From Oscillospiraceae bacterium (GTDB lineage Bacteria; Bacillota; Clostridia; Oscillospirales; Acutalibacteraceae): a DNA stretch of 64,000 bases. A program made the position numbers and the translations under genes. The notes under the pieces were generated by a model. That model had not been told where the DNA came from. It did not search any database and saw only the letters and a program-made list of their open reading frames with translations. Positions 61,258 through 64,000 of this stretch are shown piece by piece. Where the stretch lies: the NCBI GenBank assembly GCA_902762875.1, contig CACWPS010000005.1:62001-126000 (forward strand), written 5' to 3'. The stretch's first letter is position 1. Every line of letters starts with the position of its first letter.

Positions 61258-61520
61258 ATTAGACGGGATGATGCCCACATCATCCCCTACGCATACTCAA
61301 TTAGATTATGTAGGGGTCGGCATCCTTGACGACCCGTTTGTGTTTATACGAAAAAAATCAATTCAACCGATATCTGCCAACTGCGGTCTGGGTTGTAGGG
61401 AATGACCTGCGTGTTGTTTTGAATTTCGCATTACGAATTGACGGAACGGCACACAGGCCGTTCCCTACAGCGGCAAATTGAATTTTCGTAGGGAATGACC
61501 TATGTGTCGTTCCGAATTCC
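61258..61520. repeat. cluster of GTAGGG-type dispersed palindromes
   Basis: The 460-base gap before tRNA-Ala begins with short TAGACATTAGAC direct repeats (61239-61264), then GGGATGATG/CATCATCCC (61265-61287), GTAGGGGTCGGCATCC (61310 on) and three GTAGGGAATGACC or GGCCGTTCCCTAC units (61396, 61452, 61489). Same family as 3531. No gene seen. Confidence 0.6.
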
Positions 61521-61582
61521 GCTCTCGTTGTGTAAAGTCGATTTGACTAGACAGCATTAATTTAAAAAAATTCAAAAAAATC

Positions 61583-61611
61583 TTGCAATTTTGCTTTATA
61601 TATGGTAATAT
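61583..61611 (+). promoter_or_regulatory. probable promoter of tRNA-Ala
   Basis: TTGCAA at 61583-61588, 17-base spacer, TAATAT at 61606-61611, about 90 bases before the tRNA. Confidence 0.55.
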
Positions 61612-61701
61612 AGTTTTTGTTCTGAGGGAAAAGCTTAATCGAGGGCATAAAACACTCGTCTTACTTCTTCACTATTACTTCTTACTTTTTACTTAATATA
61701 T

Positions 61702-61777
<76 letters not shown>

Positions 61778-61782
61778 AAAAT

Positions 61783-61811
61783 TCCGATTGCGCAAGCAAT
61801 CGGGATTTTTA
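61783..61811 (+). terminator. terminator of tRNA-Ala
   Basis: CCGATTGC / GCAATCGG hairpin followed by GATTTTTAC. Confidence 0.8.
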
Positions 61812-61864
61812 CTTTTTCACTCTTCCCTTTTCACTCTTCACTAAAGTGAAAGCTAAGACCTTCC

Positions 61865-61995
61865 GAGTGCCTCGGTACGCAGATGCGTGCTGAGGTGCTT
61901 CTTTTTTTATAGCCTTAATTCTCGCGAGGAAGACATTGCAGACCTAAGAATGTTCGAGTGCCTCGGTACGCAGATGCGTGCTTGAGGCGCTTTTT
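61865..61995 (+). repeat. two direct copies of a long hairpin before the recombinase gene
   Basis: GAGTGCCTCGGTACGCAGATG plus CGTGC(T)TGAGG(T/C)GCTT begins at 61865 and again at 61956, a 91-base period. In each, GTGCCTC pairs with GAGGTGC and GTACGCA with TGCGTGC, then a T run. They may be tandem terminators shielding the recombinase from tRNA transcription, or recombinase sites. Confidence 0.65.
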
Positions 61996-62053
61996 TGTTT
62001 ATGTTTTGCCTGATTTGGGTTAAAATAATAAGAAACACTGTTCGGAGGTAAGT

Positions 62054-62899
62054 ATGATGAAAGGAAGAATTTTAACCGAAGATTTTATATCAGGCTTTAA
62101 GGAGTATTTGATTTTAGAGGAAAGGAGCAGGGCTACGGTTGAGAAGTATATACGGGATGTAAAGGTTTTTTCAGCCTTTGTAAGCGGTGTGGAGATTACA
62201 AAAGAAGTAGTAATTGAATATAAAAAGCATTTACAGGAAAGCTATGCTGTGCGGAGCGTTAATTCTATGCTTGCAAGCATTAACAGTCTGTTTGCCTTTT
62301 TGGGTTGGCAGGAGCTTAGGGTGAAATCCATAAAGATTCAACAGCAAATTTACTGCCCCGAGGAAAGGGAGCTGACCAAAGCCGAATACACACGGCTTTG
62401 CGCAGCCGCTAAGCATAAGCGCAATGAGCGGCTAAACCTTATTTTGCAGACGATTTGCGGTACGGGAATAAGGGTAAGCGAACTGCAATTTATAACGGTC
62501 GAGGCGGCAAGACGGGGGGAAGCCTCCGTTTCCTGTAAGGCGAAAACCCGCTCGGTCTTTATTGTTAAAGAACTGCAAAAAAAATTGCTCCGTTATGCGG
62601 CAGAGCAGAACATTAAAAGCGGTATGATTTTTGTAACACGAAAAGGCAAGCCTTTAAGCCGTACAAATATCTGGCGGGAAATGAAAGCACTTTGCAATGA
62701 AGCGGGAGTTAATCCCCAAAAGGTCTTTCCGCACAATCTTCGCCACCTGTTCGCCCGTGTGTTTTACGGAATCGAAAAGGATATTGCAAAGCTTGCCGAT
62801 ATTTTAGGTCACAGCAGTATCAACACCACGCGAATTTATATTATTTCCACCGGCACAGAGCACCGCAAAAGAATGGAAAATATGCGGCTTGTAATTTAA
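62054..62899 (+). CDS. tyrosine recombinase, likely DNA invertase of the adjacent switch
   Basis: Site-specific recombinase of 281 aa. N-terminal SAM-like core-binding domain (about residues 8-90, FKEYLILEERSRATVEKYIRD) and catalytic domain with Arg in GTGIRVSELQF, Lys in the beta hairpin (CKAKTRSVFI), HNLRHLFAR, LGHSSINTTRIYI with the nucleophile Tyr. Compact XerC/D-like size without an arm-binding domain, as in invertases that act on short inverted repeats. The gene ends 27 bases before the left inverted repeat of the segment at 62927-63330. Ribosome site CGGAGGTAAG; start ATG at 62054 or 62057. Confidence 0.9.
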   Translation: MMKGRILTEDFISGFKEYLILEERSRATVEKYIRDVKVFSAFVSGVEITKEVVIEYKKHLQESYAVRSVNSMLASINSLFAFLGWQELRVKSIKIQQQIYCPEERELTKAEYTRLCAAAKHKRNERLNLILQTICGTGIRVSELQFITVEAARRGEASVSCKAKTRSVFIVKELQKKLLRYAAEQNIKSGMIFVTRKGKPLSRTNIWREMKALCNEAGVNPQKVFPHNLRHLFARVFYGIEKDIAKLADILGHSSINTTRIYIISTGTEHRKRMENMRLVI

Positions 62900-62926
62900 A
62901 AACCGCTGTCAAAGACAGCGGCTACA

Positions 62927-62951
62927 ACATAATATGCATTATGTAATTAAC
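62927..62951 (+). repeat. left inverted repeat of the switch
   Basis: 25 bases, identical to the reverse complement of 63306-63330. Its core is ACATAAT-ATGC-ATTATGT, two seven-base arms around a four-base non-symmetric centre, as in a recombinase crossover site. Confidence 0.9.
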
Positions 62952-62989
62952 ATAATTTTTAAAACAAGCACAGATTACATATATATTAA

Positions 62990-63018
62990 ATTTTATCACA
63001 GCCTTAAGCTTATTTCAA
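62990..63018 (-). promoter_or_regulatory. promoter inside the invertible segment, now pointing left
   Basis: On the minus strand TTGAAA (63018-63013), 17-base spacer, TAAAAT (62995-62990), with an A-rich tract upstream of the -35. After inversion its start site would map near 63274, about 87 bases before the start codon at 63361. Confidence 0.7.
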
Positions 63019-63074
63019 TATTTTTTTGAAAAAAAGTATAATTTTTGGGAATAAACAGAAAAAAAGACAAAGAT

Positions 63075-63119
63075 AGCTAAGCCTTTTTACTCAATTTTGT
63101 AAAAAAGGCTTAGCTTTTT
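63075..63119. terminator. terminator inside the invertible segment
   Basis: AGCTAAGCCTTTTTAC pairs with GTAAAAAAGGCTTAGCT across an eight-base loop, followed by TTTTT. It would block any rightward transcript that enters from the recombinase side, which fits an OFF state. Confidence 0.8.
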
Positions 63120-63305
63120 GCATTTTCAGCGCTTTCCTTTGGCACAGAGAGAATTGTCCGAGAGTAAAAATGCGGCTTTTTCTCTCCCTCAGTCTCGCTG
63201 TGCCATGCTCGACAGCCGCTGACGGCGGCGGTCTCCTTTGTCACTTCGTGACATCTCCTCACACTGTGAGGAGTCACCCTCGTCAGAGGGAGCCTTAAAC
63301 AGCAG

Positions 63306-63330
63306 TTAATTACATAATGCATATTATGTA
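63306..63330 (-). repeat. right inverted repeat of the switch
   Basis: Exact inverse of 62927-62951, with centre GCAT in the plus-strand reading. It lies 30 bases before the start codon of the surface-protein gene. Confidence 0.9.
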
Positions 63331-63360
63331 TTCAGTTTTTTAAAAAGGGGGCGGCTGTAT

Positions 63361-64000
63361 TGGAGGAAGGGAAAAAGAGAAAAACGGTAAAGGCGTTGAT
63401 AATTACACTTTCCGTTTTGCTTGCTATCAGTCTTGCTTCGCTTGTCGGTATACTGATGTTCAAGCGCTTTGCCGCTTCAAAGCCTGCCTCTGTTACGGTG
63501 TCGGACAATATTATTACGCACGAAAAAGAAAATTCGGATATTTCCTCTGCTCCCGAGAGCCCGCAAGGCGTAGGGGAGAGCTCCGCGTCCGCTTCTCAAG
63601 CTCCGTCCGATTTGAGTGAAAGGGGCGTAAAGGCGCTGTATTTACATAGCCGTAATACTGATGACAATACGGCGTTTAAGGTCACCGATATGTTCCCCGG
63701 CGACAGCGAAACCAAGTATTATTGCGTTCGGGTTTCCCACAAGGGTGATGTGGTTCTCCGTTTCCGTGCAGATGTCCGCCCCGGTTATGAAAAGCTTGCC
63801 GAGGTGCTCTGTTGCCGTATTACTTTGCCCGAAAACAGCGGGGTGCTTTATGACGGTCTTATGCGGGATATGCCCGAATCGCTGAATCACGCGCTTAACA
63901 CCGATAAAGGCACGGCAAGCGAGGTCTATTACGAGATTACCGCATATTTAGACACCAGCGTCGGTAACGAATATATGAACAAGGATTTGATTGCCGACTT
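63361..64000 (+). CDS. membrane-anchored surface protein, 3' end outside window
   Basis: The frame opens at a TTG preceded by AGGGGGCGG and stays open to the window end (213 codons). A basic start (MEEGKKRKTVKAL), a signal-anchor helix at about residues 11-33, a Ser/Glu/Pro-rich linker to about 85 and an extracellular domain (ALYLHSRNTDDNTAFKVTDM, FPGDSETKYYCVRVSHKG) are seen. The domain has the beta-sandwich look of TasA/pilin-like surface proteins, but I cannot name the family. Its position directly after the invertible segment implies phase-variable expression. Confidence 0.75.

Follow-up and report, generated by a model that had tools for sequence, protein, structure and literature searches.

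A probable promoter-inversion switch beside an Xer-like recombinase and ahead of a BsaA/SipW/TasA-like operon in an Oscillospiraceae bacterium

Invertible promoters beside recombinases are already well known. The passages on inverton group 139 in PMC11892184 describe 33 invertons, 32 of them from Clostridia (gut), which are tied to tyrosine invertase group 35; a tyrosine-type recombinase is located nearby, and orientation shifts in culture were detected from reads. The two examples given in these passages have start-to-start distances of 241 and 231 bp (by subtraction of coordinates), inside the range of 209-449 found here. In contrast to the present family, the same passages carry no spacer rule, flanking terminator or SipW operon, and the ACATAA motif is absent from the main text of the paper (PMC11892184). 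Group 139 and invertase group 35 may be the same family as the present switch, being likened by description and not by motif.

Other described systems share part of this arrangement. According to the relevant passages of PMC6083910, ipuS of E. coli, ahead of ipuR-upaE, is also a promoter-bearing element (260 bp) with an adjoining tyrosine recombinase gene and a surface protein, but its repeats are 7 bp long, one is situated within the recombinase gene and several recombinases act on it. In the parts of PMC2784873 on cwpV/RecV of C. difficile, the likeness consists of a surface protein from a clostridium, a site-specific recombinase and imperfect inverted repeats of 21 bp with 195 bp between them, whereas the promoter is upstream of the segment, OFF is proposed to arise via a terminator and recV is distant from cwpV. 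The biofilm matrix of C. perfringens combines SipW with a BsaA-type matrix protein and is heterogeneously expressed, but the regulation described in the corresponding passages is by temperature (PMC7395162). Among the titles and abstract openings listed by searches of open-licence PubMed Central papers, neither these sites nor an inversion switch of a SipW/TasA operon was found.

Layout of the locus and its recombinase

The following features were identified in the window, that is, the whole stretch of 64,000 bases analyzed.

62054-62899, plus strand: Xer-like tyrosine recombinase of 281 aa, the presumed invertase (PF00589, PF02899, conserved residues)
62901-62923, minus strand: leftward intrinsic-terminator-like hairpin between the recombinase stop and the left site (10-bp stem, then a T run)
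62927-62951, plus strand: left recombination site, a 25-bp repeat with core 62927-62944 (ACATAA-TATGCA-TTATGT) and spacer 62933-62938
62990-63018, minus strand: predicted promoter TTGAAA-17-TAAAAT facing the recombinase, OFF (motif match, 11.7 vs 7.8 bits)
63075-63115, no strand assigned: internal hairpin, followed rightward by a U run and weaker in the leftward direction, probably an insulating terminator (folding energy)
63167-63300, no strand assigned: dispersed repeat inside the segment (19 further matches in the own assembly)
63305-63329, minus strand: right recombination site, the inverted copy of the left, with core 63312-63329 and spacer 63318-63323
63360-64000, plus strand: target, a signal-anchored protein with SPQTG, 265 aa, continuing beyond the window end (TIGR01167)

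The two repeats are 25 nt long, inverted and 100% complementary, and the interior between them measures 353 nt. The sequence-only reading had located the left repeat correctly but the right one a single base off (63306-63330), and had given 354 nt for the interior. The gap of 27 bases between the recombinase end and the left repeat, the target start 30 bases past the right repeat, the minus-strand promoter motif running from 63018 to 62990 and the internal hairpin were all recovered as it had described them. It had also divided each repeat into seven-base arms around ATGC; this centre is indeed not self-complementary, but the relatives favour 6-bp arms with the 6-bp spacer TATGCA. Perfect inverted repeats surround a short intergenic segment, a promoter is predicted inside at the sequence level and both orientations occur among relatives (see below), which are features expected of invertons.

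The promoter motif matches 10 of the 12 consensus bases. Since 61900-64000 has 7 promoter-like hits and its shuffles average 3.0 (sd 1.5), the motif by itself is weak evidence; the excess of the leftward over the rightward score in the segment is modest. The internal hairpin reached -21.6 kcal/mol (z -6.45) on the plus strand and -20.5 kcal/mol (z -5.96) on the minus strand. The hairpin next to the recombinase stop, which had gone unmentioned in the earlier reading, reached -15.6 kcal/mol (z -5.70) with its U run facing left. Against shuffles that preserved single-base composition only, leftward terminator-like hairpins between the recombinase stop and the left site were present in 54 of 114 loci (own counted; 38/570 in shuffles) and rightward ones in 2/114, while internal terminator-like hairpins scoring at least 12 in either direction occurred in 61 of 97 segments, with no shuffled mean that high. 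By eye, two near-identical tandem hairpin terminators were also seen at 61862-61996, between a tRNA gene (61702-61774) and the recombinase.

In an RNA family scan of 61400-64000, the sole match at gathering score was the upstream tRNA, and none fell inside the segment. Among two batches of 20 loci, one returned tRNAs plus a single fragment of a group II intron and the other returned none. A riboswitch or known RNA inside the segment was therefore rejected.

The stretch at approximately 63167-63300 (about 130 bp) matched 19 places elsewhere in the own assembly, 11 of them over at least 70 bp, and all 19 lay between positions 214 and 351 of the 353-bp segment used as query. Insertion of this repeat would account for the unusual segment length, the median site-to-site distance of the relatives being 262.

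The recombinase matched PF00589 (E 1.3e-24) and PF02899 (E 1.8e-9) and has the residue set of the tyrosine recombinase superfamily (R, K, H/R, H, Y). R140, K164, H227, R230, H253 and Y262, which we take to be its catalytic residues, were invariant across an alignment of seven homologues. The closest solved structures were the XerC-like protein 4a8e (E 6.4e-23) and XerA 5hxy. Its scores with the NCBIfam models for XerA, XerC, XerD and XerS were all under cut-off, and a housekeeping XerC or XerD identity was rejected because the equivalog scores were not reached (XerD 115.4 of 329.6 bits, XerC 107.5 of 335.15). The system resembles XerC/XerD-dif in sequence family, in a TTATGT half-site that is probably like the XerD arm and in the 6-bp spacer; chromosomal XerC/XerD-dif differs in having one site, whereas an inverted pair is present here together with a recombinase below the XerC/XerD cut-offs. 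A dif-like pattern, with up to 3 mismatches, had no match in the own genome.

Of the 394 genomes sampled from the order, 111 (own genome counted) matched the recombinase at E 1e-60 or better. Across the phylum sample, matches were found in 9 of 398 genomes, which include the own genome and G054 of the same order. The gene is sporadic within the genus, since among 36 other same-genus genomes a full-length close relative was detected only in G021. Named genomes yielded 590 confirmed loci, and the titles of the best 80 of them point mostly to Clostridia or Oscillospiraceae MAGs. The relative with the highest identity (78%) was located on a contig filed as viral (L160:7172-12303), where it precedes a type IIG-like restriction-modification set that its promoter was scored as facing.

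Paired sites and segment orientation among relatives

The core ACATAA-N6-TTATGT occurred exactly twice in the window (0.00 expected, 100 shuffles), and at zero mismatch these were its only places in the 1,694,812-base assembly (97.55% complete). As the sequence-only reading had suggested, the repeats were searched for beside homologous recombinases. The survey took loci from L033 on, leaving out L001-L032 and the lower-identity viral loci L176-L239, and comprised 182 distinct recombinase genes with more than 200 aa aligned and at least 40% identity, 148 of which had at least 450 bp downstream. Allowing up to one arm mismatch, at least two sites were detected within 700 bp downstream in 102 of the 148 genes and within 700 bp upstream in none (0/148). 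All 101 usable pairs had identical, inverted spacers, and direct, different or palindromic spacers were not among them. Their left spacers comprised 68 distinct sequences, or 61 up to strand. With two arm mismatches allowed, at least two sites were present in 117/148 and 114 of 115 pairs were inverted and identical, the exception (L126) looking like chance hits.

When the arms were left free and spacer identity was required, in a set grown to 202 genes, a pair was found in 138 of 167 cases, and upstream in 0/167. The arms of these 138 pairs were ACATAA (106), ACAAAA (10), ACATTA (7), ACAGAA (5) and eight others (10 in total), the arm sequence shifting in more diverged recombinases. No pair was detectable by this search in 29 of the 167 related recombinases, four of them at 66-74% identity. 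Controls gave paired sites in 0/18 Xer-like homologues at about 30% identity and in 0/835 Markov-shuffled regions. The start-to-start site distance ranged from 209 to 449 (median 262). An arm variant of the site was also seen at L171. Extra sites were observed at four loci (tandem left sites at L034, a 65-bp doubled repeat at L123, a third site at L041 and, by eye, at L102), where deletions or more than two states would be possible.

In other tyrosine recombinase sites the spacer is the region of strand exchange. Spacers that vary between loci and are identical within each locus are the pattern expected if the same holds here, and they raise the question of how two distant spacers are kept identical yet change from locus to locus. 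Such an explicit anatomy, made up of arms, 6-bp spacer, promoter position and flanking terminator, could allow phase switches to be found in uncultured Clostridia by sequence alone.

Homologous segments aligning at E 1e-10 or better formed 68 pairs, which have common members and are thus non-independent; 50 were on the same strand and 18 on opposite strands. The promoter direction agreed with the alignment strand in 65/65 scorable pairs, and at E 1e-10 there were zero conflicts between strand and promoter calls. Looser alignments, in a signed-graph check, gave inconsistent edges at 5/111 in one component and 1/6 in another.

The cleanest case was L084 and L102, which are collinear loci with the inner segment alone reversed. 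On the same strand, their recombinases were 82% and the downstream DNA 73% identical, and the first target proteins were 75% identical, while 179 bp of the inner segment aligned at 76% on the opposite strand, with the common spacer CGAGAG. A shorter same-strand match of 67 bp between the two lies, by eye, over a near-palindromic hairpin. The matched spacers (101/101), the agreement of promoter direction (65/65) and the L084/L102 reversal make an invertible-promoter function very likely, in support of the recombinase-driven invertible promoter that the sequence-only reading had predicted.

Among the 114 segments, the two promoter scores differed by 3 bits or more in 71, with the predicted promoter pointing left in 53 and right in 18; first-pass calls were 62/86 leftward (duplicates and five loci set aside). 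This leftward excess could reflect a biased or rarely flipped switch. In both orientation classes, the -10 box lay a median 47 nt away from the core site that it faces. On the downstream side of the recombinase, the contig broke off within 450 bp at 12 of the 70 named loci (duplicates removed from the best 80 of 590) and at 9 of 27 order-scan loci; on the upstream side, it did so at 1/70 and 0/27. Mixed orientations could cause such breaks, as could other factors, and this observation is suggestive only.

Proposed mechanism and rival explanations

We consider it highly probable that the locus is a promoter-inversion phase switch worked by the adjoining Xer-like recombinase and governing the operon at 63360. 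The recombinase would bind both ACATAA-TATGCA-TTATGT sites, and strand exchange inside their common 6-bp spacer would invert the segment between them. The sequenced state had been read as OFF, which agrees with the promoter direction and with the leftward hairpin in front of the promoter. In this state, a leftward transcript of about 85 to 90 nt would terminate in the hairpin at 62901-62923, short of the recombinase gene. The target would be OFF since the promoter points left and the internal hairpin would stop read-through from the recombinase. Once inverted, the segment would direct the promoter rightward into the target gene at 63360 and the rest of its operon (ON), and the outcome would be a mixed population with and without fibre or biofilm-matrix proteins. 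The promoter may be constantly active and parked against the terminator when OFF.

The segment might once have been invertible and now be locked OFF, with the recombinase dead or silenced or the segment disabled by the inserted repeat. The OFF-type orientation, the dispersed repeat inside the segment and the leftward bias of the relatives are in accordance with such locking, and the two orientations were seen here between relatives. However, the recombinase gene has an unbroken frame and encodes the expected catalytic residues, and both 25-bp repeats are perfect, although decay would tend to break them, and we regard this explanation as improbable. It is less probable still that the sites are att sites for integration and excision of a small mobile element, with incidental promoter content. 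Tyrosine recombinases are commonly integrases, and the unrelated first genes beside homologous segments in 46 of 59 pairs indicate that the unit moves or recombines. Against this, the usable site pairs were all inverted and none direct, so that recombination would invert and not excise; moreover, the recombinase is situated outside the site pair, and the promoter and hairpin positions are fixed.

The palindromic sites might instead be operators or hairpins that serve autoregulation of the recombinase or transcription termination, without recombination. Each site is itself an inverted repeat and could bind a dimer, but autoregulation predicts neither spacers that vary between loci and are matched and inverted within them (101/101) nor segments in both orientations, and we give this reading the lowest probability of all.

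The target operon and other genes beside related cassettes

The target protein has an SPQTG sorting signal at its C-terminus, with 19.2 bits in the TIGR01167 LPXTG anchor model (cut-off 15.9), and a Pfam scan of it gave no match. Past the window end (locus L033), the operon continues with genes for a Peptidase_M73/BsaA-like protein, for a signal peptidase I and for two proteins whose signal peptides are of the SipW-dependent type. The second gene passed Peptidase_M73, with a BsaA model score of 17 of 60. The signal peptidase scored above the cut-off of TIGR02228 (signal peptidase I; 73.7 vs 51.85) but below that of the SipW equivalog NF046067 (72.9 vs 190). Two operon proteins scored as SipW-dependent substrates, passing TIGR04088 with 25.4 and 20.7 bits (cut-off 19). 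By these model matches, the target at 63360 heads a predicted BsaA/SipW/TasA-like operon. Its former description as a surface-protein gene was thus correct but narrow, and the switch would tie DNA inversion to SipW/TasA-type matrix operons.

Within 6 kb in the 114 loci, several of which are short, relatives of SipW were found at 15 and of the first TasA-like protein at 13; L035 also has anchor and BsaA-like genes. The same-genus genome G021 encodes operon orthologues on a contig without a site; its recombinase, 54% identical, is on a different contig and has sites of its own there, so the link between switch and operon is lineage-specific. Loss of the repeats in a relative keeping both genes had been named as an observation that would speak against inversion; G021 corresponds to it only in part, its operon being free of sites and its recombinase having them elsewhere.

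The cassette appears to be one of a widespread family of similar switches beside many different genes in related bacteria. First genes, taken in 107 of the 114 loci, fell into 55 clusters. Among the 25 listed of 86 Pfam families (scan limited to the first 420 aa of each protein) were SPFH (9), TetR regulators (7), BspA-type leucine-rich repeats (6), pilin-like proteins (5), camelysin (5), GGDEF (3) and helicases (3). Phage defence as the main target theme was rejected, as each defence model matched at most 3 of the 107 first genes (25 listed of 39 models). L120 heads a pair of a metallophosphoesterase and an LmuB/mad3-like ATPase.

Of 59 pairs of homologous segments, 46 precede unrelated first genes and 13 have a common target cluster, which is above the background of 3.7%. 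The idea that one cassette lineage keeps one target was rejected: target labels changed 28 times over the tree, in which 58 of the 107 rows carried a label. The labels still clustered above chance, since the shuffled mean was 39.3 changes, a value as low was reached in 0/200 shuffles and the minimum possible was 9. In the same genus, L265 and L269 have 92% identical recombinases and 87% identical segments in opposite orientation, with unrelated targets and with spacers that differ between the loci and match within each.

Inside 20 genomes or assemblies with multiple cassettes, with several cassettes unreadable and G042 excluded, spacers differed in 23 pairs and matched in 3. In G042, at least four cassette copies carried the same spacer. 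Private spacers are thus not absolute. We can propose only tentatively, as a rather doubtful possibility, that the cassette is a mobile, privately addressed module, in which recombinase, sites, promoter and terminators would move as one between unrelated operons, both spacers would change together and most cassettes with the same enzyme family and arms would not cross-react in a genome. The enzymes and sites could also be of use as a collection of orthogonal tools for DNA inversion.

In G042 and G072, the recombinase is present in many copies that go with the arm variant ACATTA (L042-L048, L051; L251-L255). Their readable targets were pilin-like (L045 and L051, both by eye; L251, L253-L255), and many G042 contigs stop at or close to sites.
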